From NCBI GenBank assembly GCA_028279305.1, contig JANQOA010000023.1, positions 21,800 to 85,799 on the forward strand: a DNA stretch of 64,000 bases, given 5' to 3'. This stretch comes from Pseudomonadales bacterium. GTDB lineage: Bacteria > Pseudomonadota > Gammaproteobacteria > Pseudomonadales > Azotimanducaceae. Shown here one piece after another: positions 27,020 to 44,778 of this stretch (positions are counted from its first letter, which is position 1; each line of letters opens with the position of its first letter). A program made the translations under genes and the position numbers. Below the pieces are notes generated by a model. It saw nothing but the letters and a program-made list of their open reading frames with translations. It did no database searches and was not told where the DNA came from.

Positions 27020-28219
27020 TCAACCCTCACCACCGCCAGCTAAACCACCTGGGGAGCACGACTTCAAGGGATTGGCCCGACCCATTCCCGGCCGCGTTGC
27101 GGCATACACGAGTCCAATCGCCGCAATCGCCAGCAGCACGGACGACCATCCCAGCACACGGTAGTTGCCGCCGAGAGCGAGTATGCCCGCACCCAGACCC
27201 GGCGCTATCGCGTTACCGATGGCAATGAAACCGCGCGCGGCGGCGGCAAGCGAGCCCGTGTCATCGAGTTTTGCCGCGAGTCCGAGCAGATAGATTGAGC
27301 AGAATCCAAGCACCGCGCTGGACAACACGATGCCCGCGGTAAAGCCAAAGGCATTTGCGGAGTGAGTAGTGAGCAGCGATGCAACAGCAAGCAGAACAAA
27401 GCCGGCACTCAGCGGCGCGAAATGGCCGAAGCGTGCGCCCATCAGATACGCGGCCACGGGAGCGACAAGCACAATAGCACTGACAAACACCAGGGCCTGC
27501 CCGACCTCAGCAAGGGTCATACCGATGTTGTGGCCGATACGCTCGATAAAATACCAGGGGGTATTCGCGCCCACATCCAACATCAATAGAGCTGCCAGCG
27601 TGCAGATGCCCGCTGCCGACCATGGTGTTCTGATTTGTTGTTTGCCTGTTGACCGGACAGACGTCGCAGGCAAGTGCCGCAACAACGGCGTGGCGGCAAG
27701 CGACAGCACGCCAATCGCCGTAAACGTGGCCGGCAAGCCAAGCTTGGCAAGCGCAGGCGGAATCGCCAGATAAGCGACAATACCAACGGATGCGATGGTG
27801 CCGGCCATCAGGGAGAAGATCTTCTCGGGCTTCTCGGCCCGGGCTGCCACCGCTGTGATCGCGGTAAGCGCCATGCCCTCGCCGATACCCAAAACTGTTC
27901 TGGCCAGCGTGTAGCCCACCGCCGACTCCGTAAGCCCGGTGAGCAGGTTGGTGATGCCGATCACAAGCATACCGAGCATGGCCAGCTTCCTGAGATCGAA
28001 GCGATGGATACTTTGTGCCAGTGCCAGTGACGTCAGCGCCAACGCAGACAGCCTGGTGAAGATGACAAAACCGACCTGCTCTTCGAGCATGCCGTAGCGC
28101 TCCATTACGTTCCCCACCAACAGCGGGACGATGAACAGGGTCAGTTCACCCACCGTCAGCCCAAGGCCCAGGGCAAGCACCGCGCCCGGCGGTTGCCCTG
28201 CAATCCTGAACCGGGTCAC
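27020..28219 (-). CDS. MFS transporter
   Basis: 399 aa, multiple TM segments, MFS-like; ATGA overlap with TBDR2. Confidence 0.8.
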   Translation of the reverse strand: MTRFRIAGQPPGAVLALGLGLTVGELTLFIVPLLVGNVMERYGMLEEQVGFVIFTRLSALALTSLALAQSIHRFDLRKLAMLGMLVIGITNLLTGLTESAVGYTLARTVLGIGEGMALTAITAVAARAEKPEKIFSLMAGTIASVGIVAYLAIPPALAKLGLPATFTAIGVLSLAATPLLRHLPATSVRSTGKQQIRTPWSAAGICTLAALLMLDVGANTPWYFIERIGHNIGMTLAEVGQALVFVSAIVLVAPVAAYLMGARFGHFAPLSAGFVLLAVASLLTTHSANAFGFTAGIVLSSAVLGFCSIYLLGLAAKLDDTGSLAAAARGFIAIGNAIAPGLGAGILALGGNYRVLGWSSVLLAIAAIGLVYAATRPGMGRANPLKSCSPGGLAGGGEG

Positions 28220-30399
28220 AGCGCGTAGCTGAGCCGGATTCCCGACCAGCGCGGCCGGCCCCAGATACTGATGTTCGTGTCACCGACGTTGCCGGAAAAC
28301 GAAAAGTAATCCTCGTCCGTGACGTTTTCGACAAATAGATCCACAGCGACGCGCGTCGATGGAGATGTCCACCCGGCGCGCAGGTTGACCAGCGTATAAG
28401 ACGCTTGAAATTCGATGGGGTTGTTGACCACGTGGAAGTAGTTGTCATCGACATAATTAAAATCCGCCTGCAGCGAAAACGTGCCGAAGCCGGAGGTAGG
28501 CAACGCGTAACGGACCAGACCGTTGACGGTAAATTCCGGCGCATTCGGCAGCTCGTTTCCGTCTATGGGCAGCCCTCCCACCGTTGTGCCCGGAGAATCG
28601 ATTTCAGTCTGCAGGTAACCGACACCCATCGACAGTAACAGGTTTTCCGACGCCTGCCAGGCCAGGTCGAATTCGGCGCCGTATATGTCCACTTCACCGG
28701 CGCTGATCAACGAAGAGCGCACCTCCCCCGGTAGCAGGGCCAGGGCCTGGAAGTCCTCGTAGTGGCTGCGGAATGCCGTCAGGTTTGCACGCAGACGCTC
28801 GTTGAGCCAACTCCCTTTCATACCGGCCTCCAGCGACAACACGGTTTCTTCCCCGACAGGACTGGCATCGAGACTGAGTATGGCGGCCGAGGAATTGTTG
28901 AACTGGGCGCTCTTGAAACCCGTCGCGTAGGTGAGATACACCATCACATCTTCCTGCAGCCGGTATTCAACACCCGCGCGGGCTGTTACCTTGCTGGTCG
29001 ATACGGAGTCATTGATGACACCGAGAGTTGGAGCAGACAGTGAATCAGAGAGCTGGTAGTCTTTGTCTTCGTCGGTAAAACGCAGCCCCAGGAACCCTGA
29101 CAGCGAATCATTGAGGGCGTAGTTGACATTGGCGAACAGGGCTTTCGATTCCGTTTCCTGGTTCGACTCCGACTGCAGGCCGAGGGTTGCGCCCAGAAGA
29201 TCGATCAATATGGGCAGGCGTAGGAAGATATCGTCCTTCTTGTCATCGTAGTAGTAGGCACCTACCAGCCAGTCGAGCCTGGTATCAAATGCCCTGCCGG
29301 ACAGACGCAGTTCCTGAGAAAACTGATTGGCATCCAACCCGGAATTAGTGGTGAGAAACGCAACCCCGGTTGCGTCTGCATCTTCTACGTATAGACGCTC
29401 CACCTCCTCATAAGCGGTCACCGAGACTAGCGACATTTCACCGATCTCCCAGTTAAACGTTACACTGCCGCCAAGCGTATCAATCTCGTTGGTGGCCTGG
29501 GATTCATCCTGCGCGACGGTTTCGGGATCCAGAGGCTGGCCGGGAACACCGAACGCGTTTGTACACTGCAAAGCGATAACCGCCGCCGGTTCACAAGGCG
29601 TCGGCACCGGGTCCAGCAAAGTCGCGGGATCAAGCAATCCGCGATAGGCATAGCCATGGTTTCTGCCGTCCGTGCGGCTGCCATGGATATTCAGCAACAC
29701 GGTGATGGCGTCCGAGAGATCAGCTTGCAACTGTCCGCGCAGCGCCCATACGTCGGTCTGGGTGAGATCCGGCCCGCCGGCGGTATTCTCCTGAAACCCG
29801 TCGTCTCTGTTACTCTTCAGCGAGAGCCGCCCGCGCACATGCTCTCCCATCGGTACGTTGACCATCCCCTCGAAAATGCGCTGGCCGTAGGAACCGGCCT
29901 GAAAGCTGGCAGACAGCTCAAACTCGTCTGCGGGTTTGTTGGATATGACGTGGACCAGGCCGCCGGTGGTGTTGCGGCCGAACAGGATCCCCTGAGGCCC
30001 CCGCATCACCTCGACCCTCTCCGCGTCGAAAAACTGAGCGAATTGTCCCGCAGCCGTGCCGTAGTAAACCTCGTCTACGTAAAAACCGACGGGCGCTTCA
30101 TTGGCATTGGTGAAATCGAAGAGCTGCACGCCCCGGATAGAGAAGGTGGGAATTCCGGTTCCGGGATCGGTATAGCTGACATTGGGTACCTGGGCGGCCA
30201 GCATCGGTCCATATTCGAAGTTGAAGGTGTCGATCGCATCCTCTCCGAAAGCGCTCATGGCGATCGGCACGTCCTGGATCGACTCGGCGCGTTTTTGCGC
30301 GGTCACGACTATCTCTTCGATGGTTGCGGTGTGCCCAATTTGCGTCAGCAGCAAAAAAGCGGCGGTGGCAAACAGACGCCCAACAGCATTCGTGCACAT
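28216..30399 (-). CDS. TonB-dependent receptor (TBDR2)
   Basis: TIEEIVVTAQKRAESIQDVPIAMSAF, RGPQGILFGRNTTGGLVHVIS; ATG 30399 with GGAGATTATCC upstream. Confidence 0.93.
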   Translation of the reverse strand: MCTNAVGRLFATAAFLLLTQIGHTATIEEIVVTAQKRAESIQDVPIAMSAFGEDAIDTFNFEYGPMLAAQVPNVSYTDPGTGIPTFSIRGVQLFDFTNANEAPVGFYVDEVYYGTAAGQFAQFFDAERVEVMRGPQGILFGRNTTGGLVHVISNKPADEFELSASFQAGSYGQRIFEGMVNVPMGEHVRGRLSLKSNRDDGFQENTAGGPDLTQTDVWALRGQLQADLSDAITVLLNIHGSRTDGRNHGYAYRGLLDPATLLDPVPTPCEPAAVIALQCTNAFGVPGQPLDPETVAQDESQATNEIDTLGGSVTFNWEIGEMSLVSVTAYEEVERLYVEDADATGVAFLTTNSGLDANQFSQELRLSGRAFDTRLDWLVGAYYYDDKKDDIFLRLPILIDLLGATLGLQSESNQETESKALFANVNYALNDSLSGFLGLRFTDEDKDYQLSDSLSAPTLGVINDSVSTSKVTARAGVEYRLQEDVMVYLTYATGFKSAQFNNSSAAILSLDASPVGEETVLSLEAGMKGSWLNERLRANLTAFRSHYEDFQALALLPGEVRSSLISAGEVDIYGAEFDLAWQASENLLLSMGVGYLQTEIDSPGTTVGGLPIDGNELPNAPEFTVNGLVRYALPTSGFGTFSLQADFNYVDDNYFHVVNNPIEFQASYTLVNLRAGWTSPSTRVAVDLFVENVTDEDYFSFSGNVGDTNISIWGRPRWSGIRLSYAL

Positions 30400-30478
30400 G
30401 GATAATCTCCCCAGTGGATGTCGACGAGGGAGTGTCTGTCTCAACGCGTGCGTTTGAAATCCAAATTCCGTGAAACTC

Positions 30479-30498
30479 AGTTCAGACTTGGCTGAACT
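30479..30498. promoter_or_regulatory. Inverted repeat AGTTCAG-ACTTGG-CTGAACT in the divergent TBDR2/hydrolase promoter region
   Basis: 7-bp perfect arms. Confidence 0.45.
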
Positions 30499-30557
30499 AA
30501 ACTTGCGGCGGGCTGTAGCAGAATTGTGGCCTCGCAATAAGCAAGCCACAGCCGCAA

Positions 30558-31475
30558 ATGCCCAAGATTCAATGCAGCAACATCGAAATCGACTACTTCG
30601 AACAACGAACTCCGGGACAACCCGTGGTGCTGGGGGTGCAGGGCCTGGCTGAAGGCTGGCGCTTCTGGCCGCAGTCGTTCTACGCGGCCTTGCAGGACGC
30701 GGGTTACGGTTTTGTCGCCCTAGACAACAGGGACATCGGCGGCTCGACCATCATGCACGCAGCCGGTGCCGCTGATATACCCGCCGCACTGGCGGCCCTT
30801 GCGGCGGGAGATCAACCCTCCGCCAGCTACACTGTGGAAACCCTGTGCGACGATCTCGTCGTTTTCATGGATGCCCTGCACATCGAAAAAGCGCACCTGA
30901 TCGGCTACTCGATGGGTGGAATCGTGTGTCAATGGGCGGCAATCAAGTACCCGCGCAGGGTGGAGAGCCTGATACCCCTGATGACCACCAGCGGCTATCC
31001 GCAGTTACCGCCGCCCAGTCAGGAAGCAACTGACATGGCCATGGGGCTGGCGGCGCCGCTGGCGGATCGGCACGACGCGGTGCAACGCTTGCGCCATATG
31101 TGGCGCGTTACCACAGGCAGCGGGTTTCCCGCCACCGGGGAAGAAGAAGCGGATTTCGTCTCCCTGATGCTGGAACATGGTTTCCGGCCGGAGGCGATCA
31201 GCAGGCAACTGCTGGCCGTCTATGCCGCTCCCGCCCACTACCCGCGTCTGACGGAAGTGCTGTGCCCCGCTACCGTGATTCATGGGTCGGACGATTGCTT
31301 TTTCCACGCAGAACACGGCGCCGATCTTGCCAATCGTCTGCCAAACGCACGCCTGGCAAAGATTGAAGGGGCTGGTCACAACTTTACCGAAAGTCTCATG
31401 CCAACCCTTGCCCGCACGGTGTTAGACCACCTGAGCGGATGTGCCCCACTTCAAAAAGCTCAAGCCAATTCATAA
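30558..31475 (+). CDS. Alpha/beta hydrolase
   Basis: LIGYSMGGIVCQWAAIKYP nucleophile elbow; DCFFHAEHG and EGAGHNF (Asp/His region). Confidence 0.85.
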   Translation: MPKIQCSNIEIDYFEQRTPGQPVVLGVQGLAEGWRFWPQSFYAALQDAGYGFVALDNRDIGGSTIMHAAGAADIPAALAALAAGDQPSASYTVETLCDDLVVFMDALHIEKAHLIGYSMGGIVCQWAAIKYPRRVESLIPLMTTSGYPQLPPPSQEATDMAMGLAAPLADRHDAVQRLRHMWRVTTGSGFPATGEEEADFVSLMLEHGFRPEAISRQLLAVYAAPAHYPRLTEVLCPATVIHGSDDCFFHAEHGADLANRLPNARLAKIEGAGHNFTESLMPTLARTVLDHLSGCAPLQKAQANS

Positions 31476-31485
31476 GGAGGATGCG

Positions 31486-32583
31486 TTGAACGCTGACAAT
31501 TTGTTATACGGACAAACTCTGCCGCGCGCGCTGGCGCCGAAGTACTACACCTCACCCGGTGTTGCTGAAGACGAAGTGGAGAAGATATTCAGACGCGAAT
31601 GGCTCTGTGTTGGACGCAGCACAGATTGGCCGGCACCTTACGACTACCGGGCGTTCGACCTTGCCGGCGAGCCCGTTGTTGTCTGGCGCTCACGCAACGG
31701 CGACCTGCAGGCATTTGAAAATGTCTGCCGTCACCGCATGGCCGTCATCGCGTCCGACGGCGGCAACGCCAGAACGCTTTCATGTCCGTATCACAAGTGG
31801 ACCTACGACAGCACGGGGGCCCTGCGCGGCGCACCCGGCGTAGCTGATGAACTGGAGGGCCTGAGCATCTGCCTGCCCAGGCTGGCGCTGGAACAATGGC
31901 AGGGATTTGTATTTGTTAACGTTGATGCAAACGCGAAACCTCTTGCACCACGCCTCACCGGGCTCGATGAGCTGCTGAATGTCTATCGGCTGGCCGAGTT
32001 CGAATGGAGCACGCAGAACACCACCCGCCAGTGCAAGGCCAACTGGAAAATAGTCGCGGAAAACGCCTACGAGGGGTACCACATCACCGCCGTGCATCCG
32101 GACACCCTGGCCCCCTATGTGTCGCGCCAGGCTTCACCGCCACCCGGTGAGTACTGGAGCGTGTCTTACGAACCCCGCAAGTCCGAATTTCCACCCTGCC
32201 CCGGCGACCCTCCCGGCCTAGGCACCAGGGAAAGAACCGATGCTTACACCATCGGCATTTTTCCCAGCACCATCATCAACGTTGACGGCGACACCATCAA
32301 CTGGTTCTCAACCCTCCCCCAGGGAGCGGATGCGAGCACGATGTTCGGCGGCATGAGCAAACGCTCCCCGGCCGGCCCGCGGCGCATCGGCGACACCGCT
32401 GAACTCAGCGAGGCCGAATTTCAGAGCTGGGCAGGTGAACTGGTGCTTGAAGACGTGCTGATATGCGAGTCGATCCAGCGGGGTATGCAGGGAGCCTACG
32501 CCAGCGGAGGACCGCTTATCGCGGAACAGGAAGGCAGCCTGGCCGCCTTTCACAGCTACATCAAAAATCAACTGGGATACTAG
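31486..32583 (+). CDS. Rieske non-heme iron oxygenase alpha subunit (intact; 'RHO1')
   Basis: ENVCRHRMAV...LSCPYHKW Rieske motif (CxH..CxxH), ENAYEGYHITAVH Fe motif; TTG 31486 preceded by AAGGAGG. Confidence 0.9.
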   Translation: MNADNLLYGQTLPRALAPKYYTSPGVAEDEVEKIFRREWLCVGRSTDWPAPYDYRAFDLAGEPVVVWRSRNGDLQAFENVCRHRMAVIASDGGNARTLSCPYHKWTYDSTGALRGAPGVADELEGLSICLPRLALEQWQGFVFVNVDANAKPLAPRLTGLDELLNVYRLAEFEWSTQNTTRQCKANWKIVAENAYEGYHITAVHPDTLAPYVSRQASPPPGEYWSVSYEPRKSEFPPCPGDPPGLGTRERTDAYTIGIFPSTIINVDGDTINWFSTLPQGADASTMFGGMSKRSPAGPRRIGDTAELSEAEFQSWAGELVLEDVLICESIQRGMQGAYASGGPLIAEQEGSLAAFHSYIKNQLGY

Positions 32584-32584
32584 G

Positions 32585-33793
32585 ATGAACGCAACCAACA
32601 TCTACGACATTCTCACACAAGCACAGATCGATGCTTGCTCAGCGCCAATCGAACAGGCTCGCACCCTTCCCCGCCAGGCTTTTACCAGCGACCGGTTTTT
32701 CGAACTCGAAGCTGAGAAAATATTTGCCCGCCAGTGGGCGGCTTTGTGCTTCGTGCAACAGGTGGAAAACCCGGGTGATGTCCTGCCGATAGACCTCTGC
32801 GGCATGCCGCTGCTGGTTGTGCGCGGCAACGACAAACAGGTGCGCGTGTTTCATAACATCGTTCCTTACGACGGTTGTCTGGCGGCCATCGACCCCGCCG
32901 GGGAAAGCAGCGAAATTGTCACCCCCTATCACGGCTGGCGCTACGACTTGCAGGGACGCCTCAAGGCAACCCCCATCTGGAACGGAACCTGGAGCGCCGA
33001 ACCGGCTGACCTGAATGGTCATGCGGGCAATCTGACCGAAATTCAATGCGAGATCTGGGGACCGGTGGTATTCGTCAACGTCACAGGCGGAGGCGGCTCG
33101 TTCGACGAGTACATCGACCCGTTGCGAAGGGGACTGGAACAGTGGCGGGTGGATGAGATGGACATCGCCCGCGATGCGCAGCGCAATCCACTGCTGGACC
33201 CGGAGGACCTGCAGACCAACTGGAAGACGCACTACGAGAACTGGGGCATAAACGTGCTGCATGAATCATTTGTGCACCACATCTATGACCAGTCACCCGA
33301 GGTGCCAAGGCTTGACACAGCTCATAACAAGACCTGCGAGGACCACATCGACGGCGACTTCATGGCGCTGCGATTCGAAGCGGCCAGCTTCCCCGAAACG
33401 TACTCGTTACCGGCTATTCCACATCTGGGCCTGACACCCGACGCGCCGCCCTCTCTGGGTTACTTCGGCTCGCTGTTTCCCAACCTGCACATCGGCGCCC
33501 TCGGGCCGATGATTCACCTGATCATCGGACAGCCGGTATCTCCAGGACGCACAAAAACGCTGAGGGCGCAGTTCTACGACGCTGAAGTTGCGTGCTCGGA
33601 AGATCTGCTGGAGATGCGCACGGAACTCATGGGTGGACTCAGGCAGGCCGGAGACGAAGACGCCCGCATCACCCAGGCCGTACAGAGAGCGCGCCGGTCA
33701 CCGGTGTTCGACAGCCAGTTTTACTCGCCGTTCTGGGACGCCATGCATCATCGCTTCACGCGGCAAATCATCAACACCCTGGCAATGGAATGA
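32585..33793 (+). CDS. Rieske-oxygenase alpha-subunit homologue with degenerate Rieske site ('RHO2')
   Basis: 402 aa; FHNIVPYDGCL...IVTPYHGWRYDLQG aligns to NVCxHRG..CxYHGW.YD with C->V, H->Y, C->T; NWKTHYENWGINVLHESFVH retains the His pair. Confidence 0.88.
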   Translation: MNATNIYDILTQAQIDACSAPIEQARTLPRQAFTSDRFFELEAEKIFARQWAALCFVQQVENPGDVLPIDLCGMPLLVVRGNDKQVRVFHNIVPYDGCLAAIDPAGESSEIVTPYHGWRYDLQGRLKATPIWNGTWSAEPADLNGHAGNLTEIQCEIWGPVVFVNVTGGGGSFDEYIDPLRRGLEQWRVDEMDIARDAQRNPLLDPEDLQTNWKTHYENWGINVLHESFVHHIYDQSPEVPRLDTAHNKTCEDHIDGDFMALRFEAASFPETYSLPAIPHLGLTPDAPPSLGYFGSLFPNLHIGALGPMIHLIIGQPVSPGRTKTLRAQFYDAEVACSEDLLEMRTELMGGLRQAGDEDARITQAVQRARRSPVFDSQFYSPFWDAMHHRFTRQIINTLAME

Positions 33794-33803
33794 AACGCGC
33801 TAT

Positions 33804-34730
33804 TTAAGCTTCGGGTTGTTCCCTGCACCGGGCGAGGATCTTGAGAAACGCATCGAGCACCGGTGAAGACGGGGAGACATCGCGTTTAAGCATGGCGCAG
33901 TCGCCGAACTGGTAGATCCGATCAGGCCAGATCGGGCGTATCGCGCCTTGTTGCTCGAACGATGCGGCGTAGTGCTCAGGAAGGTAACCGAGCGCAAACC
34001 CGGACAGCACGAAGTGCAGCATGCCTTCCGGATTCACCGCAAAGGCTCGATCGTTCGACCGGAATTTGGGCACAACCGGACCCGAAGCTATCTGATCGTG
34101 TTCGTAGATACCCCGATTGAGTACCGACGCCGCTTCGATGTCCGCCAGAGTGATGTCCGTGTCTTCACGTACAAAAAGCGGGTGCCTGACACCGCAGTAA
34201 AGTTGATGACGTTCTTCGAAGAACTGCTGATATTGCAGGCCCGCGATTTCGTGATAGAAGAAACCGAACCCCAGATCGAGGGTCCCCTCGAGCACGCGCT
34301 GTTCCAGATCAACAGCGGACACCACCTCGATACTCAACCGCACCGCGTGATCGAGTTGCGCGAAGCGGTATATCGCCTCCGGCAGACAGTTTCCCGGGCT
34401 GGACACCAGATTGTCCTGTGTGCCTATTCTGAATTCACCACTCAGATTGTCTGTCAGGTCCACGGCCAGAGTTCGGAACTCATCCAGACGGCTCAGCAGC
34501 TCAACAGCCTCGCGGTAAATCACTTCGCCGCGGGGGGTGACCCGGAAGCCGCTTCTGCCGCGTTCACAAAGCATGTATCCCAGTCTCACTTCCAGGTCAT
34601 TCATATACCCGCTGATCTGAGATGGGCTGATGTTGAGCTCGATACAAGCTTGCTTAAAGCCTCCGGACTCGACGATCTGCACGAACACCCGCAGCAGGCG
34701 AATGTCGAGATCGTTAACTCTCCCCAGCAC
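33804..34730 (-). CDS. LysR family transcriptional regulator
   Basis: NDLDIRLLRVFVQIVESGGFKQACIELNISPSQISGYMNDLEVRLG; GTG start. Confidence 0.9.
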   Translation of the reverse strand: MLGRVNDLDIRLLRVFVQIVESGGFKQACIELNISPSQISGYMNDLEVRLGYMLCERGRSGFRVTPRGEVIYREAVELLSRLDEFRTLAVDLTDNLSGEFRIGTQDNLVSSPGNCLPEAIYRFAQLDHAVRLSIEVVSAVDLEQRVLEGTLDLGFGFFYHEIAGLQYQQFFEERHQLYCGVRHPLFVREDTDITLADIEAASVLNRGIYEHDQIASGPVVPKFRSNDRAFAVNPEGMLHFVLSGFALGYLPEHYAASFEQQGAIRPIWPDRIYQFGDCAMLKRDVSPSSPVLDAFLKILARCREQPEA

Positions 34731-34788: not shown

Positions 34789-35832
34789 TCAATCCGACGG
34801 TAGCCTCGTAAGCGCCACACCGTCACGGTGCGTTTGAGGAGAAACCCCCGCAAGCGCTTTGAACGCAGATGTGAAGTTAGCCGGTTCAGTGTAACCGAGC
34901 GACCATGCGATCTGTTGTACCGACATCTCTGTTTCCTCCAACAACTCCAGCGCAAGCCGGTGACGCAATTTGTTTTTAACGTCACGGTAAGAGGTGCCGA
35001 GCAACCGCAGCCTCCGCTGCAGCGTTCGTGTGCTCATCATCAGACGTTCAGCCAGGACCTCAATGGACGGCATCTCCCTGCCCGACGTGAGCAGAATACC
35101 TTCAATATGATCCACCAGATCGGCGCGCCGTAAAAGTTTCTCGACAGAGTGCTGACACTGCCTGATCGCAACCGCGTAAACACTTGGGTCCGCGCTTCGC
35201 TGCGGCGTGTCGAGAACCTCGGGATCAAAAGTAATCTCATCGTGAGGTTGCCCGAATCGCACAGGACAGTCGAACGTTTGCGCATAAACTTCAGCGTGTA
35301 CGGGCGGCGGATAACTCAGACTGATTTGCTGAATCCGGTGCTGCAGATGTGCAACACGCAGCGCCAGATAGGTTGAGGAAAGCAGGGTTTCCACACCCCA
35401 AACGCGGTGCCAGGCTTCCGGATACTCCGCCTCGTGTTGAAGCCTGCCCAGGCGCAACCTGGCAAAACCTCTGAAACGCTCCAGGGTCATTGCAACCGGG
35501 GTAGCCACCAGATTCTGAAAACGGACGTATGTGCCGAGGCTATCACCAACTGTCGCGCTGGCGGCGGCGGCGCGCCCCACTGCGTCCGCGTTGAGCAGGT
35601 GCAGGCTTTCCTCTTGCACAAACCCAACTTCCGGCATGCCGAGGTCGATAACACAGTAGCGGATGAGCACGTAGTGCTGCTCGTAGCTCACAAACTTGCC
35701 GGGCGCTGCCAGACCTTCCCTGGTGAGCCCGATTTTTCGCAACAGCGGGCCGATCGAGAACCCCGCGCGCTCGACCTGGGTAACCGGATCGAGCAGATAA
35801 CTCGCCGGAGCGCGCTGCCATAGATCCTTCAT
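34789..35832 (-). CDS. AraC family regulator (arabinose-binding-like N-terminal domain)
   Basis: C-terminal HTH LAERLMMSTRTLQRRLRLLGTSYRDVKNKLR...AWSLGYTEPANFTSAFKALAGVSP. Confidence 0.92.
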   Translation of the reverse strand: MKDLWQRAPASYLLDPVTQVERAGFSIGPLLRKIGLTREGLAAPGKFVSYEQHYVLIRYCVIDLGMPEVGFVQEESLHLLNADAVGRAAAASATVGDSLGTYVRFQNLVATPVAMTLERFRGFARLRLGRLQHEAEYPEAWHRVWGVETLLSSTYLALRVAHLQHRIQQISLSYPPPVHAEVYAQTFDCPVRFGQPHDEITFDPEVLDTPQRSADPSVYAVAIRQCQHSVEKLLRRADLVDHIEGILLTSGREMPSIEVLAERLMMSTRTLQRRLRLLGTSYRDVKNKLRHRLALELLEETEMSVQQIAWSLGYTEPANFTSAFKALAGVSPQTHRDGVALTRLPSD

Positions 35833-35890: not shown

Positions 35891-35942
35891 CCGAATCAGC
35901 ATGGAGTTGTCATACGCTATCGCAAAATGAATGGAGACAAAC

Positions 35943-37031
35943 ATGTTTGCCAAGCAGAACTGGTACTACGCGCTGCAATCCGAGGAGTTGGGTTCGGAAG
36001 TAACAGGCGCGCGCATCGTCGAAGAAGATGTGGTGCTGTACAGAGACGAGGCCGGCAGGGCGCACTGCCTGTCGGCAATGTGCGCACACCGCGGTGCCGA
36101 TCTTTCGCTTGGACGCGTGGTGCAGGGGCGCATCGAATGCCCATGGCACGGATGGCAATACTCGGGCGACGGGCAGTGCAAACTTATCCCTTCAATCGGC
36201 GCGTGCGGAAAGATCCCCGGCCTTGCACGGGTCACAAGTTACCCAACGGTTGAGCAGCAGGGTATCGTTTACGTCTGGATGGCGCCGGAAGTCGAGCCAG
36301 CATGGCAGCCGAAACTTCATCCTTTCTTAGATGCCGCAAGACAACTCCGCAGCCCGACCCGTGTCCAGAGGGGCAGCTATATCAATACTCTGGAGGGCGC
36401 CGTTGACGACAGCCATGTGCCGTTTCTGCACCGGAACAACATAGGACGGGGCGCGCCGCGCGAACTGCCGGCCATCACCAACCTCACCATTGACGAGGAC
36501 AACCGCGGCGTAGAAGGCAGCATGATCTGGCCCGAAGAGATGAAGCGGGAAGCTTCCGCGTTTAATGCCTGGTTGGACCGCGCCGTTTTTGGCATCAACG
36601 AACCGCTGTCCACCCATGACAAGACATTTCGCATAGAAACCACCGGACTGGTGGTTCACCGGTACAAGAAGACCAATGGTACGGAGTTTCTGGTCTACGC
36701 GTTTGTCACGCCAATCGATGCAAACAACAATCGGTTTATGGCAGCCGCCGCAGACACCGGTTCCGGTTACGGCAGGCTCAGTCAGATGATGTTCCGCCGG
36801 GTGCTCAACACGCTGACGGGTGAAGTGCTCGACGAAGACGAGTACATGATTCAGAGCGCGCTGACTGAGCGATTCGGCGGCAGTCATCCACGGCCGGTTT
36901 CCGTTACCGCGGACACTTTAGGCCTGGCATACAGACGCCTTTACGGAAACCTGGTCCAGGCCGAAGGCAAAGAACCGGCGTGGCCGGTGTCCAGCAAGGA
37001 GCAGAAGCAGGTTGTACTCGCATCGGGTTAA
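35943..37031 (+). CDS. Rieske oxygenase alpha subunit, phthalate-dioxygenase-like (RHO3)
   Basis: MCAHRGADL...ECPWHGWQY; LEGAVDDSHVPFLH; ATG 35943 has GGAG 7 bp upstream (35931 is the alternative). Confidence 0.9.
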   Translation: MFAKQNWYYALQSEELGSEVTGARIVEEDVVLYRDEAGRAHCLSAMCAHRGADLSLGRVVQGRIECPWHGWQYSGDGQCKLIPSIGACGKIPGLARVTSYPTVEQQGIVYVWMAPEVEPAWQPKLHPFLDAARQLRSPTRVQRGSYINTLEGAVDDSHVPFLHRNNIGRGAPRELPAITNLTIDEDNRGVEGSMIWPEEMKREASAFNAWLDRAVFGINEPLSTHDKTFRIETTGLVVHRYKKTNGTEFLVYAFVTPIDANNNRFMAAAADTGSGYGRLSQMMFRRVLNTLTGEVLDEDEYMIQSALTERFGGSHPRPVSVTADTLGLAYRRLYGNLVQAEGKEPAWPVSSKEQKQVVLASG

Positions 37032-38409: not shown

Positions 38410-39915
38410 CTATCGCAGGTGATCGTATTGACGGTCAAAGAGGCTTTCGTTGCCGGTAAACGAGGCGCGGTGCGCTTCTATGTCTTTCAACATATCTTTG
38501 ACTACATCAGGATGTTGTGCAGCAACGTCAAAGCGCTCGCCTGGATCATGCAACAAGTGATTCAAGACGGGTTTATCGTGCACAACCCGATCAGGAGGAC
38601 GCTGGTAGGCTCCCTCGCTGATCAAATGCAGCTTAAACGGCCCTTTGCGGTACGCCCGAAGTTCACCGCTGCGATAGTAAAACAAACCATCGCGGGGGCT
38701 CTTTTCACGCCGCAACAAAACACCGCTTAGGTCCATACCATCCAATTCATCGGGTAAGTCGGCGCCTGCAAGAGTGAGTGAAGTTGTATAGATATCCATC
38801 GCAGAGCCGATCTCGCTGACAACCCCCGGCGCTATCCGGCCCGGCCACGAGAAAATCGCAGGCACCCGCATACCGCCTTCATAGGTAGTGCCTTTGCCGT
38901 TTCGTAACAAACCCGCGCTGCCGCCGTGATTGTCCATCAACAACCAGGGGCCGTTATCGCTGGTAAACACCAACAGCGTATTCTCCGCCAGGTTCAGTTC
39001 ACGCAATGTCCGGCTGATCGCACCCACACTCCAATCGAGTTCTTCTATTACGTCACCGTAAATGCCGCCCAGGCTGCTACCCTCAAATTCGGCACTCCGA
39101 AACAGCGGCGTATGAGGCATGGAGAAAGGCATATATAGAAAAAACGGCTTGTTCTTATTGCGTTGGATAAACGAAACAGCCTCTTTTGTGTGGTTCTTCG
39201 TTACATCATGCTGGTTCGCCGGCCGTTCGACCACTTCATCCTTGAACCCTGAAACTGTCTTTTGACTGCGAACAACCGGGACATTCCAATATTCAACCTT
39301 CGGCTCCAGGTACTTCCGCATTCTCTTCGCAAAGACCTGGCTGACAGCCTGCCGGCCTTCTCTGGCTACCAATGCAGCGAGTTCCACAAAGGTCGGCTCG
39401 TCCACCCAGTCCATATCGTTGGAGTAAGGGATGCCGTACCAGTAATCGAATCCGTGACGGGTGGGATAGAATTCGGGCGCATCACCCAAGTGCCATTTGC
39501 CGACGATGCCGGTCGCATAACCTTCTGCTTGCAGCGCCTCTGCAAGCGTGTGCTCGCTGTCCGGCAGACCGTTTGATGCATTGGGGAACATCACCGCAAT
39601 CTGGCGCCCATACATCCCTGTCCGGTTGGGCAACCGGCCCGTTAACAGCGCAGCGCGGCTGGGCGAGCAAACCGGCGCAGCGACATAGAAATCTGTCCAA
39701 CGTTGCCCCTGGGCCGCTAACTTATCCAGATTCGGCGTACGATTGTACGGATGACCGTAGCTGGTCAGGTCTCCGTATCCCAGATCGTCCGCGAACAATA
39801 GAATGACGTTCGGCGGCTGCTTGGCCCCCGGCACCTCAGCAGGTGCTGCATTCGAAAAACAGCCTGCACTGAATACGATCGAAGCCAGAAACAGTATAAG
39901 ATTACGTTTCAACAT
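38410..39915 (-). CDS. Exported sulfatase (arylsulfatase family)
   Basis: NVILLFADDLGYGDL and CSPSRAALLTGR (C-x-P-S-R formylglycine signature); signal/lipobox-like N-terminus. Confidence 0.94.
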   Translation of the reverse strand: MLKRNLILFLASIVFSAGCFSNAAPAEVPGAKQPPNVILLFADDLGYGDLTSYGHPYNRTPNLDKLAAQGQRWTDFYVAAPVCSPSRAALLTGRLPNRTGMYGRQIAVMFPNASNGLPDSEHTLAEALQAEGYATGIVGKWHLGDAPEFYPTRHGFDYWYGIPYSNDMDWVDEPTFVELAALVAREGRQAVSQVFAKRMRKYLEPKVEYWNVPVVRSQKTVSGFKDEVVERPANQHDVTKNHTKEAVSFIQRNKNKPFFLYMPFSMPHTPLFRSAEFEGSSLGGIYGDVIEELDWSVGAISRTLRELNLAENTLLVFTSDNGPWLLMDNHGGSAGLLRNGKGTTYEGGMRVPAIFSWPGRIAPGVVSEIGSAMDIYTTSLTLAGADLPDELDGMDLSGVLLRREKSPRDGLFYYRSGELRAYRKGPFKLHLISEGAYQRPPDRVVHDKPVLNHLLHDPGERFDVAAQHPDVVKDMLKDIEAHRASFTGNESLFDRQYDHLR

Positions 39916-39918
39916 TGC

Positions 39919-42408
39919 TCAAAGCCTCGCCTCCCTGTTTCTTTTCGCCTGTTTTAACAAGTAGCCCAGTGCACGTCCATACTGATGATTGAGAACGGCG
40001 ACCAGGGCATTAAGCTGATTAAAATCGACTTTGCCCTGACCGAACAACGCAAAGGCACGAATTGGCATGTCATCGATCATCGATTCAAACATGCGCAACA
40101 GCGTGGCATCCATTTTTGCTGCATCCAAATTCAGACTTCTCGTAAACTGCTGGAACGCACGGGCTCTAATACGTTTACCCAACCAGCTGTTTTGCGCCAG
40201 TTCCTGCAAACTGGAGTTGATATGAAAGGGCCGTGCCGACTCAGGCTCAGGCAGCTTGCGTCCCAGCATGCCCGCAAATTGTTCGTCCGATACCTGCATA
40301 CCATCAGAACCCAGACTGAAGTTAACAGCCCTTAACGCATCTGAAACCATGTCATCCGACTCAATGTTAAGGGTCTGCCTGAGCCGAATATCACGACTTG
40401 AGGACCCAATGCGCACCTCATATGCGCCAGCTTCGACAATCCAGCACTTCTCCTGAGGGTCGAATATCTCAAACCCCTGCCGGGAAAGCGTCAACTCTAC
40501 CCTTTCGGTTGCACCCGGATCGACAAACGTTTTGGTAAATGCTTTTAACTCCTGTGCCGGCCTGTGCACATCACTTGCCAAAGCACTGACGTAAAGCTGC
40601 ACAACTTCCGCTCCGGCGACGCCGCCGGTGTTGGTGATGTCCAGGGTTACCATGAGGTCGGACCCGCGCTTTTCGATGCCAAGGTTGCTGAATTCAAACT
40701 GGGTGTAACTCAGGCCGTGTCCAAAAGGAAAAAGCGTTGGCTTATCAGCAGTATCAAAATAGCGATAACCCACATATATTCCTTCCCGATACTGCACTTG
40801 CCGACCGGCGCCTGGAAACCAGGGGTCACTGGGCACATCGGACTGCTGCAGTGGAAACGTCTCCGCCAACTTGCCGCTTGGGTTAACCGCGCCAAACAGC
40901 AGATCAGCGGCAGCGCTGCCGCCCGCCTGGCCACCCAGGTAACATTCCAGGATAGCGCGCGGTTCGTTCACCCAAGGCATGGAGACAGGTGCGCCGTTGC
41001 ACAACACAACCACGGTGTTGGGGTTTACGCCGCACACTGACTGTATCAATCGATTGTGCTGATCAGGCAGATCCATATGCGGGCGGTCGAATCCCTCAGA
41101 CTCATAGGTTTCCGGCAACCCGGCAAACACAATTGCCAACGCCGAGTTCCGCGCTACCCGCACCGCCTCATCGATCAGGCGTTGATCCGGTTCGGAGTGT
41201 ACGGGCTCATATCCGGCTGCATAGGCGATCTGACCCGAACCGCCATGGTGCGCTGCGATGGCGTCAAAGGCACAATCAATTTGCGTGGTATTCACTCGTG
41301 AACTGCCTGTGCCCTGATAACGCGGCTGCTTCGCAAACGCGCCGATAACTGCAATATCCGCTTCACCGCTGATCGGCAGCATGCCCGCGTCGTTCTTGAG
41401 CAGCACCGCTGATTGCGCGGCCGCTTTGCGCGCCAGGCTATGATGAGCAACCTGGTCCACAGACACCGCCTGGTCAGCCAGATCACGCCCGCAAAGGCTG
41501 AGCGAGACATTACGCACAATGATCTCATCCAGCACGGATTCAGCCAGTTCGCCGGATTCAATAGCCCGCTCGATCAGCCTGTCGTTGATTCCGCCGCTCG
41601 CCGGCATCTCCAAATCAAGGCCGGCGGACACACCCTTTACCCGATCGTTGGTAGCACCCCAATCGGTCATGACCAGCCCTTTGAAACCCCACTCATCACG
41701 CAAGACCCGGTTCAGCAGCCAATCATGATCGCTGCAGTAGGTGCCGTTCACGCGGTTGTAGGCACACATGACGGTCCATGGTTGTGCTTCGCGTACCGCG
41801 ATCTCAAACCCTTTCAGGTAAATCTCGCGCAGGGCACGTTCATCTACTATGGCATCGATATACATGCGGCCTTGTTCCTGATTGTTTACCGCATAGTGTT
41901 TGATGCTGGCGCCCACGCCCTGCGACTGTATGCCCTTGATGATTGCGGCCGCCATCTTTCCCGACAGGAAAGGATCCTCGCTGAAATACTCGAAATTGCG
42001 GCCGCACAACGGATGGCGCTTGATATTCATGCCCGGCCCCAATAGGACAACAACATTTTCGGCAACACATTGTTCTCCAAGGGCAACACCAACTTCGGCG
42101 ATCAGGCGTTCATCCCAACTGGCTGCCAGGGCGCTGGCGGTAGGGAAGCAAGTCGCCGGTATCGCCTTGTCCGCACCTACGTGATCGCCCGCGGACGCTT
42201 GTTTGCGGAGGCCGTGCGGACCGTCTGTAATCATCACCGCGGGCAGGTCCAGGCGTTTGCAATCCTGCAGGTTCCAGAAACTCTTGCCTGAGGCGCATGC
42301 CGCCTTCTCCTGCAAGCTCATGCGCTGAACGAGTGCGGCTGCCTCATTGTGTTTGTTAATGAACGGCGCGGCGGGATCTTCCGGAACGTTGTGCATAGGT
42401 GTTCTCAT
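39919..42408 (-). CDS. GH3 beta-glucosidase-like glycoside hydrolase
   Basis: 829 aa; GFKGLVMTDWGATND nucleophile region, LGPGMNIKRHPLCGRNFEYFSEDP; no signal peptide evident. Confidence 0.93.
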   Translation of the reverse strand: MRTPMHNVPEDPAAPFINKHNEAAALVQRMSLQEKAACASGKSFWNLQDCKRLDLPAVMITDGPHGLRKQASAGDHVGADKAIPATCFPTASALAASWDERLIAEVGVALGEQCVAENVVVLLGPGMNIKRHPLCGRNFEYFSEDPFLSGKMAAAIIKGIQSQGVGASIKHYAVNNQEQGRMYIDAIVDERALREIYLKGFEIAVREAQPWTVMCAYNRVNGTYCSDHDWLLNRVLRDEWGFKGLVMTDWGATNDRVKGVSAGLDLEMPASGGINDRLIERAIESGELAESVLDEIIVRNVSLSLCGRDLADQAVSVDQVAHHSLARKAAAQSAVLLKNDAGMLPISGEADIAVIGAFAKQPRYQGTGSSRVNTTQIDCAFDAIAAHHGGSGQIAYAAGYEPVHSEPDQRLIDEAVRVARNSALAIVFAGLPETYESEGFDRPHMDLPDQHNRLIQSVCGVNPNTVVVLCNGAPVSMPWVNEPRAILECYLGGQAGGSAAADLLFGAVNPSGKLAETFPLQQSDVPSDPWFPGAGRQVQYREGIYVGYRYFDTADKPTLFPFGHGLSYTQFEFSNLGIEKRGSDLMVTLDITNTGGVAGAEVVQLYVSALASDVHRPAQELKAFTKTFVDPGATERVELTLSRQGFEIFDPQEKCWIVEAGAYEVRIGSSSRDIRLRQTLNIESDDMVSDALRAVNFSLGSDGMQVSDEQFAGMLGRKLPEPESARPFHINSSLQELAQNSWLGKRIRARAFQQFTRSLNLDAAKMDATLLRMFESMIDDMPIRAFALFGQGKVDFNQLNALVAVLNHQYGRALGYLLKQAKRNREARL

Positions 42409-42468: not shown

Positions 42469-44778
42469 CTAGTTGAACCGGTAAGTAAAGGTACCGCCAA
42501 CGTATCTCTGGTAGTCCCGATTCAGAAACTGGCTGGTGCCGTCCACCGCATCGAAAACAGATTCCAGAAGGACGTTCGTGTAGTCGTCATCAAGCGCATT
42601 TTTTGCAAACAGCGCCAGGTCCCATCTACCGTCGCGGTCTTCCACACCAATCGTCAAGTCGAGTACCGAGTAGCTATCGATGTCCAAACTGGGCCTCTGG
42701 TTCACCGCGCTGACGGCATCATCCTGCCAACGAAACGCACCGGACAAGTAGAAGTTGGCAGGACCGTCCGTGAAGAAGTCGTAACGCGCCTGCAACGTAA
42801 ACTTCAAATCCGGCGAATTTGGCACTTCCTCATCCGCCAGATCCTGAACTCCGCCGATGCAGCCTTGCGCAGCAGTTTGCCCGGTGAAGCACGGGCCGCT
42901 GTCAAATTCATCGTAGAACGCATCGGTGTATGAAACGCCGCCGTTGACCAACAGGTTAGCTGTTGGCTTGGCTGTGAAGTCGACTTCCACGCCGCGGGTT
43001 ATCACGCTGCCCGCGGAAGTGAGAACAAACGCGCCCTGGCCGGCATCAAACCCTTGACCCTGGAAGTCATCGTAAGTGGTGTGGAAAGCTGTCACGCCTA
43101 AACGAAGGCGCCGATCAAACATCTCCGTACGTAGACCAACTTCGAACGAATCCGAGGTTTCCGGATCAATCGGCTCCACTCGATTTGGCGTCAGCCCGAA
43201 TACGATATCGAACCCCTGGGATTTGTAACCGCGGGTGTACGAGACATAGGCTGATGTGTTTTCACCAAGCGCCCACTGCGCCGCTACCTTACCCGATAAG
43301 TCAGTGTCGTCATCACCACCGCTGGTGGCAAAGGCCGGAACTGCCGGAAACGCGATGGGATCGGTCGGGCGGTTAAAGTCAAAATCCAGATCGTCGTAAG
43401 TGAAACGCAGCCCGGCGGTCAAGGTTAATACCTCGGATGCGTGCCAATCCACCTGCCCGAACAGGGCGGCATTTTCGAACGTGACATCGGTATCAAAAAA
43501 GCCGAATTGTGTGAGGCCAAAGGCGCAGGGTGTATCCGGCGGCAGCGCTGGATCGAAACCCGGAACTGCGCAAATCTGAATCTCACGCTGGAAGTAGCGG
43601 GTTAGATCCTGACGCCACAGAAACAGTCCGGCAGTGACGTCAAAGTGGTCAAAACCGGTTGAAGTGAAACGAAACTCCTGGGAAAACTGCTCCTGATCCG
43701 TTGTGCCGCCGTTTGAAGTAATGAGCAACCGGGCATAAGTCGGCTCGGTGAAAGGCAGGTGATCAACGTCCTGTTCCGTCTCAATTGTCCATTCGCGGTA
43801 AGCGGTAATCGAGGTGAAGGTCCAATTCTCGAAGTCGATGGTTAACTCCGCGGACACGCCCCACTGATCGGTATCTGAGAGTACATCGGTGCCCAGCAGC
43901 ACTTCATTGTTGTCATCACCCACATCAACGCCGCCGGCGGCCAGATCGAATCCCAGCAAAGGCAAAATCTGCGGGACCGCGCCAACATTACGCACGGTAA
44001 AGGCACAGCAGTCCCGCTCCTGTTCGCTGTAGTCGGCGATCAACAGCAGATTGGCGTTCTCTGCAAGGTCGATATCCAGCTTGCCCCGAATGCCCTGACT
44101 ATCATCACCATTCAGCGTATCGCCGTTAAACTCGTTATCGATAAAACCATCAAATTGTTTCCAATAGACATTGAGACGGCCGCGTACGGACTCCGACAAG
44201 GGCCCGGATAAGGAACTTTCAACAATCTGCTGATCATCATCGGTTGCGGAGAGTCGAATCATGCCTTCAAACTCTTCTGTTGGCCGCCTGGTGATGACAT
44301 TAATCAGGCCACCCGAGGCATTTTTACCGAACAAGGTACCCTGCGGACCGCGCAGCACCTCCACCCGCTCAATGTCGACCAAGTCGTTCAGGAAACTTCC
44401 GGTGCGGCCCAGAACCACTCCGTCAACCACGGTGCTGACAGTTGGTTCCACGCCCGACTGGAACGCGGTTGTACCAATACCACGAATCAAAACACCATTT
44501 CCCCGTATCCCTCCGGATTGTGTGTGTGTGATGGACGCTGACACCTGGGTCAAATCTTGAAAGTTGTCCGCCTGAATGATGTCCAGGACCTCACCGGAAA
44601 CTGTCGAAACGGATACGGGAACGTCCAGATAATCCTGTTCACGCTTCTGCGCAGTCACCACAATTTCCTCCAACGCGGCTTGTTCCTGAGCATTCGCATC
44701 AACGTGTGCAACCGACAGCACGGCTACCAGGACCGCCGCTGGTACACCTGAACAAAAATCAATTATTTGCCTTTTCAC
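42469..44778 (-). CDS. TonB-dependent receptor (TBDR3)
   Basis: ALEEIVVTAQKREQDYLDVPVSVSTV, RGPQGTLFGKNASGGLINVITRRP. Confidence 0.94.
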   Translation of the reverse strand: MKRQIIDFCSGVPAAVLVAVLSVAHVDANAQEQAALEEIVVTAQKREQDYLDVPVSVSTVSGEVLDIIQADNFQDLTQVSASITHTQSGGIRGNGVLIRGIGTTAFQSGVEPTVSTVVDGVVLGRTGSFLNDLVDIERVEVLRGPQGTLFGKNASGGLINVITRRPTEEFEGMIRLSATDDDQQIVESSLSGPLSESVRGRLNVYWKQFDGFIDNEFNGDTLNGDDSQGIRGKLDIDLAENANLLLIADYSEQERDCCAFTVRNVGAVPQILPLLGFDLAAGGVDVGDDNNEVLLGTDVLSDTDQWGVSAELTIDFENWTFTSITAYREWTIETEQDVDHLPFTEPTYARLLITSNGGTTDQEQFSQEFRFTSTGFDHFDVTAGLFLWRQDLTRYFQREIQICAVPGFDPALPPDTPCAFGLTQFGFFDTDVTFENAALFGQVDWHASEVLTLTAGLRFTYDDLDFDFNRPTDPIAFPAVPAFATSGGDDDTDLSGKVAAQWALGENTSAYVSYTRGYKSQGFDIVFGLTPNRVEPIDPETSDSFEVGLRTEMFDRRLRLGVTAFHTTYDDFQGQGFDAGQGAFVLTSAGSVITRGVEVDFTAKPTANLLVNGGVSYTDAFYDEFDSGPCFTGQTAAQGCIGGVQDLADEEVPNSPDLKFTLQARYDFFTDGPANFYLSGAFRWQDDAVSAVNQRPSLDIDSYSVLDLTIGVEDRDGRWDLALFAKNALDDDYTNVLLESVFDAVDGTSQFLNRDYQRYVGGTFTYRFN

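Follow-up and report, generated by a model that had tools for sequence, protein, structure and literature searches.

A Rieske oxygenase-derived family with replaced cluster ligands and bridging acid and conserved iron-triad residues

Described Rieske oxygenases and the pseudo-Rieske gene

Rieske oxygenases (RHOs) are defined by a Rieske cluster paired with a mononuclear iron across the subunit interface, and their electrons pass from the cluster of one subunit to the iron of the next via a bridging acid. In 2013, Kunugi et al. reportedly found the two centres of Micromonas chlorophyllide a oxygenase on separate chains, one with the Rieske cluster and the other with the iron. This eukaryotic enzyme is an RHO in two polypeptide chains (PMC9615114), which jointly make up one ordinary RHO. 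NdmC of the caffeine-degrading NdmCDE complex is a characterised RHO-family mononuclear iron protein that has no Rieske cluster and depends on NdmD, a reductase carrying an extra one, and on NdmE (PMC4408171); both systems still contain a Rieske cluster, on another chain. Activity of CntA is lost in the bridging variants E205A, E205D and E205Q (PMC7948474), no electron transfer takes place in naphthalene dioxygenase D205A (PMC5033481) and, in carbazole dioxygenase, the second Rieske His bonds to the bridging acid, the first His being without bridging contact (PMC5033481).

The gene studied here occupies positions 32585-33793 on the forward strand of a 64,000-nucleotide stretch of a Pseudomonadales genome (assembly GCA_028279305.1, contig JANQOA010000023.1), the whole of which is called the window. 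It encodes an RHO alpha homologue of 402 aa, referred to as the pseudo-Rieske protein, in a full-length reading frame that is open throughout. Pfam domains were matched at residues 50-130 (PF00355, Rieske domain; E 4e-10) and 208-393 (PF00848, Ring_hydroxyl_A; E 1.5e-11), and an AlphaFold2 model calculated from a 25-member alignment displayed the RHO fold with a pLDDT of 92.9 and a pTM of 0.93, confidence being lower in the block around the Fe-ligand helix H226-H231 (pLDDT 71-79). The best PDB folds were those of stachydrine demethylase and CntA (TM 0.70-0.83), and the best sequence-profile match to solved structures was CntA (E 1e-29). A Rieske-type domain together with a helix-grip catalytic domain is thus indicated by Pfam, the model and the PDB folds alike, and the N-terminal domain is predicted still to fold despite the loss of three ligands. 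In NCBIfam, the best match of both this protein and its intact neighbour was the GbcA glycine betaine monooxygenase family (NF058607), although the pseudo-Rieske protein, with its missing ligands, scored only 79.8 bits, far under the cut-off of 670 bits.

The group V RHOs CntA and Stc2 (stachydrine demethylase) resemble the pseudo-Rieske protein in their alpha3-type fold and in the positions of the Fe triad, but carry C-x-H and C-x-x-H cluster ligands and an essential bridging Glu where it has Val/Tyr/Thr and Asn. In the profile alignment with CntA, V93, Y95, T113 and H116 face these ligands without a gap: the V93-D96 codons (32861-32872, forward strand) specify V-P-Y-D where intact relatives have C-x-H-R, and the T113-H116 codons (32921-32932, forward strand) specify T-P-Y-H where they have C-x-Y/F-H, Cys, His and Cys being replaced and the second Rieske His, the fourth ligand, retained. 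Residues 93 and 113 are separated by the same 20 residues in both proteins and misalignment is therefore not the cause of the missing ligands; an alignment artefact was ruled out by this spacing, the profile alignment and the 27 family members described below. In the catalytic domain, the N223-H231 codons (33251-33277, forward strand) close the motif N-W-K-T-H-Y-E-N-W-G-I-N-V-L-H-E-S-F-V-H and place Asn three residues before the first Fe-ligand His, at the position of the bridging Asp or Glu. N223 adjoins a one-residue insertion at the bridging Glu in the CntA alignment, and the insertion in this helix is accompanied by a new invariant Glu, E227, giving H-E-x-x-x-H, neither feature being mentioned in the preliminary description. 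Both His of the Fe site are kept as H226 and H231, and D359 (E358-D359 codons, 33656-33661, forward strand), in an E-D motif facing the E-D of CntA, aligns with the third, carboxylate ligand, leaving the triad intact. The preliminary description had reported this reading frame and its length, the codons at 32861, 32867, 32921 and 32930 (that of residue n starting at 32585+3(n-1)), the replacement of three cluster ligands with H116 kept, the Asn at the bridging position and the preserved mononuclear Fe site, all of which agree with the alignment and with the family. Judged from its sequence, the pseudo-Rieske protein is clearly an RHO by descent, yet fails two features that define the RHO mechanism.

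Members, residue pattern and origin of the family

A search of 58 related genomes recovered full-length relatives with 51-54% identity in four same-genus genomes, one of which also holds a paralogue with 43% identity. A total of 85,462 species genomes were scanned with patterns representing the two cluster loops (FHNI.PY and [TA]PYHGW), one pattern sufficing per locus, and this retrieval, biased to these motifs, yielded 30 loci. They were found in Pseudomonadales, methanotrophs (Methylobacter, Crenothrix), Leucothrix, Pseudomaricurvus, a SAR92-clade bin, several alphaproteobacterial bins, a Nitrospinota bin and a Latescibacterota bin (the copy in the last being broken), the taxonomy of the bins being best treated with care. 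The 27 full-length members, mostly from Proteobacteria, were used for all family counts, and 22 intact relatives picked by their C-x-H / C-x-x-H motif served as the comparison set. In HMM searches of class, phylum and genus samples (369, 399 and 40 genomes), family proteins scored 580-608 bits and the next matches 214-241 bits, those with the motif read being intact CHCH/Glu proteins; no intermediates between the family and intact RHOs were seen in these samples. The family is rare, no member outside the genus being found in the class and phylum samples, and no relatives were found in the viral contigs searched. Among the matches listed from plasmid records, the best reached 27-28% identity, were mostly annotated as ordinary ring-hydroxylating dioxygenases and adjoin catabolic genes, e.g. 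for aldehyde dehydrogenases and a BCCT transporter. The window genome itself gave 24 matches to the query, similar to some large same-genus genomes (e.g. 25 in G010 and 22 in G008), with 0-5 in many smaller ones.

Residue 95 is Tyr, residue 96 Asp and residue 223 Asn in every member (27/27), as against His, Arg and Glu in every intact relative (22/22); Cys occupies residue 113 in none of the 27 and in all 22, and Glu occupies residue 227 in all 27 and in none of the 22. Neither set shows any variation at H116, H226, H231, E358 or D359. Because N223, D96, E227 and the Fe triad lie outside the scan patterns, their invariance is no retrieval artefact, and the ligand pattern is, on the aligned residues, far beyond chance given its 27/27 invariance. 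Residue 93 is still Cys in nine members and Val or Thr in the other 18, with at least three changes required on the tree. With the rest of the pattern invariant, it follows that the common ancestor already carried the replacements of the His, of the second Cys and of the bridging acid, the first Cys having most simply been lost repeatedly thereafter. The earlier proposal that ligands and bridge were lost together while the Fe site was kept thus holds for the losses and for the kept site, but not for their simultaneity.

At the four ligand positions, each family member has at most one Cys and one His. It could be argued that a rearranged ligand set (H90, Y95, D96, C98 and H116) holds some other metal or cluster in the N-terminal domain; of these residues, H90, Y95, D96 and H116 occur in all 27 members and C98 in 26, all within the two former cluster loops. 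However, H90 is also found in 9 of the 22 intact relatives, residue 98 is Ser in one member and a single Cys remains in most members, and we give this explanation only a very slight chance. A rearranged [2Fe-2S] cluster with C98, named in the preliminary description as a finding that would overturn it, is likewise unlikely since most members, that of the window included, would then have just a single Cys and a single His to offer from the two loops, besides H90. Binding of some other metal, or a hydrogen-bond site, in these loops is conceivable.

The 27 members formed one clade in trees built without the trait columns (SH-aLRT 100; in the more careful analysis, 100/100 support and recovery in 100% of bootstrap trees), the sister of which is an intact CntA-like clade with a bridging Glu. 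The intact RHO encoded upstream in the window was placed elsewhere, apart from the pseudo-Rieske clade, and a local tandem duplication of that gene was ruled out, as the tree joins the clade to CntA-like proteins. The family is small, ancient and previously unnamed, and is descended from Rieske oxygenases; no description of it, or of Rieske-less, degenerate or pseudo-Rieske oxygenases like it, was found in the open-access papers searched.

Random decay of a redundant RHO copy could be suspected from the broken or fragmentary copies that some loci carry (L045:2399-3688, L047:4943-6034, L056:6250-6900 and L057:4729-7118), the damaged copy of L047 directly preceding an intact family copy. Against this, the reading frames of the members are full-length, the triad is invariant across Gamma- and Alphaproteobacteria and dN/dS was 0.06-0.21 for close pairs (Nei-Gojobori method, pairs with estimable dS, those with dS >1 being near saturation). 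Neutral decay was ruled out by dN/dS and conservation across the clade, and random decay is accorded almost no probability. Purifying selection on the Fe site, and repurposing rather than decay as the preliminary description had it, are supported by these sequence comparisons and by conservation over the 27 members.

Gene neighbourhoods

A single base separates the start codon of the pseudo-Rieske gene from the stop codon of an intact RHO alpha homologue (31441-32583, forward strand; C-R-H-R / C-P-Y-H motifs and bridging Glu), orthologues of which are similarly placed in five further Pseudomonadales genomes. In these six genomes the pseudo-Rieske gene follows the intact RHO gene at a distance of at most 2 bases or with a 4-base overlap. 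The intact partner and its orthologues read C-R-H-R-M in all members examined, whereas most RHOs read C-x-H-R-G. The start of the partner gene is overlapped by an alpha/beta hydrolase gene (30558-31475, forward strand; assigned with Pfam), homologues of which (38-41% identity) lie between the two RHO genes in two relatives. Downstream and convergent with the pseudo-Rieske gene is a LysR-type regulator gene (33804-34730, reverse strand; assigned with Pfam), and LysR genes also adjoin family members in L022/L040 and L039. It is followed by an AraC-type regulator gene (34789-35832, reverse strand), conserved in the cluster and divergent from a second intact RHO gene (35931-37031, forward strand), which encodes a VanA-like C-terminal domain and is kept in five relatives. 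The genes for the AraC regulator, the VanA-like RHO, the intact RHO and the pseudo-Rieske protein are kept together in four genus relatives and one further Pseudomonadales bin.

Beyond the Pseudomonadales, an intact RHO lies near the family member of one gammaproteobacterial locus (L044). In 20 of the 27 loci the Rieske motif was absent from the fetched flanks, some of which are short because the contig ends. An obligate partnership with an intact RHO was ruled out by these solo loci, so that the suggestion that homologues always sit beside an intact RHO applies to the Pseudomonadales subset and one other locus, and not to the remaining 20.

These neighbourhoods bear on two readings in which the pseudo-Rieske protein would work with another RHO. 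In a split oxygenase of the NdmC type, NADH-driven oxygenation would draw its electrons from a Rieske cluster on another protein, either the neighbouring intact RHO or a reductase that has an additional Rieske centre. The existence of NdmC, which likewise has no cluster, and the coupling of the gene to an intact RHO in six Pseudomonadales genomes are consistent with such an arrangement, but the bridging acid is Asn throughout the family, at a position where even conservative changes inactivate CntA (PMC7948474), and 20 of the 27 loci show no Rieske motif in the flanks fetched. Neither a GST nor a Rieske-reductase was found among the Pfam-scanned sample of neighbours, such as would be expected of a linked NdmC-type system. 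Furthermore, NdmA and NdmB, the proteins used in this comparison, reached no better than E 0.4-0.5 against the family profile, which suggests that the family may not be a branch of the Ndm group, apparently a distant RHO branch. The split arrangement is considered unlikely. Unlike NdmC, the family keeps its Rieske-type domain as a cluster-free fold, and it differs from both NdmC and the split chlorophyllide a oxygenase in combining a domain without cluster, a lost bridge and solo occurrence in most genomes. Alternatively, the pseudo-Rieske protein might be a structural or regulatory pseudo-subunit that tunes or stabilises the adjacent intact RHO in mixed trimers, as the near-overlapping gene order conserved in the same six genomes would allow. 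This role is regarded as distinctly improbable: the gene is solo in most genomes, an invariant Fe triad would be superfluous in a pure scaffold, and the protein did not arise as a copy of the adjacent RHO, since its closest clade in the tree is the separate, CntA-like one. Of the three functions offered in the preliminary description, a non-Rieske Fe enzyme fits best, while the pseudo-subunit and the oxygenase fed by another subunit are weakened because most flanks lack a Rieske motif and the bridging replacement is expected to block transfer.

Solo members adjoin genes for FAD amine-oxidase-like proteins, alpha/beta hydrolases, metallo-beta-lactamase (MBL)-fold hydrolases and transporters. 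An MBL-fold hydrolase recurs near the family branch comprising L022, L039, L040, L046, L053 and L055, and several loci share the same MFS transporter type. Two conserved genes, for proteins of ~165 and ~425 aa, come after the pseudo-Rieske gene in Methylobacter, Crenothrix and Leucothrix (L030:1171-4229, L034:5974-9109 and L036:5971-8987), and the Leucothrix copies of these two matched nothing in Pfam or NCBIfam; the Leucothrix locus adds a heme-oxygenase-like iron protein (PF14518), and the gene set shared by the three looks like a conserved cassette.

Electron route and putative reaction

The second Rieske His, which the family retains as H116, corresponds to the one that couples with the bridging acid of carbazole dioxygenase; the acid with which it would pair is replaced by Asn. 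With the cluster ligands also lost, electrons are not expected to travel the canonical route, either within a homotrimer, which would lack a cluster, or from a foreign Rieske subunit, for which the bridge would be missing. Preservation of the triad points to a reaction at a putative metal, and the pseudo-Rieske protein is probably a cluster-free, Rieske-independent mononuclear iron enzyme on the RHO scaffold. Such an enzyme would form its own trimer and bind Fe(II) at H226, H231 and D359, as the conserved ligands suggest, with Tyr95, Asp96, His116 and Asn223 possibly serving as a structural or proton-relay network in place of cluster and bridge, and would carry out an O2-dependent, or other iron, reaction needing no NADH or Rieske electrons. 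Set against this reading are the moderate confidence of the model around the His pair from which, with D359, iron binding is deduced, the tight linkage to an intact RHO gene in the six Pseudomonadales genomes, an arrangement that would also fit a heteromeric partner, and unlinked Rieske or reductase genes elsewhere in the genomes that could serve the family protein.

In its simplest version the electrons would come from the substrate, as in extradiol or oxidase-type facial-triad enzymes, the likeness to extradiol dioxygenases lying in the proposed mechanism and no kinship being claimed. O2 chemistry driven by electrons from the substrate is proposed tentatively, its basis being the logic of the family and the adjoining FAD oxidoreductases, alpha/beta hydrolases and MBL hydrolases. 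Similarly tentative is the fuller proposal of an RHO lineage that, having no electron-transfer apparatus of its own, may have become a self-sufficient facial-triad enzyme, using substrate electrons or another iron reaction, with the old cluster and bridge sites reused as a Tyr-Asp-His-Asn network.

The retention of the triad after both electron-transfer elements had gone would also suit a non-redox or non-iron metalloenzyme (a hydrolase, lyase or isomerase with Zn, Mn or Fe bound by the former triad), in which Glu227 could act as general base; H-E-x-x-x-H is present in 27/27 members and absent from intact relatives, and several members adjoin metabolic hydrolases. However, nothing points to a non-redox reaction, the spacing differs from the HExxH of zinc peptidases and the neighbours with known domains are mostly of oxidative-catabolism types; we hold this alternative to be quite improbable. 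Because these neighbours are oxidative, substrate-supplied electrons are preferred over non-redox chemistry, with modest confidence.

A natural family without cluster and bridge in which the putative iron site is kept would mean that selection can maintain the catalytic domain without the cluster-iron pairing, and it offers a natural test of what a lone iron site is capable of. Domain-family annotation still labels the members Rieske dioxygenases and their real reactions are therefore mis-assigned; since members occur in named strains (Leucothrix arctica IMCC9719 and Pseudomaricurvus alkylphenolicus KCTC 32386), the question is open to experiment.

In the window, the cluster-free iron enzyme proposed here probably acts, beside the alpha/beta hydrolase and in one catabolic pathway, after the two intact RHOs have hydroxylated or demethylated a compound. 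Further along the window lie a sulfatase gene (38410-39915, checked with Pfam) and an open reading frame resembling family 3 glycoside hydrolases (39919-42408), and the region is flanked by two open reading frames which, by the look of their sequence, encode TonB-dependent-receptor-like proteins (28216-30549 and 42469-44778).
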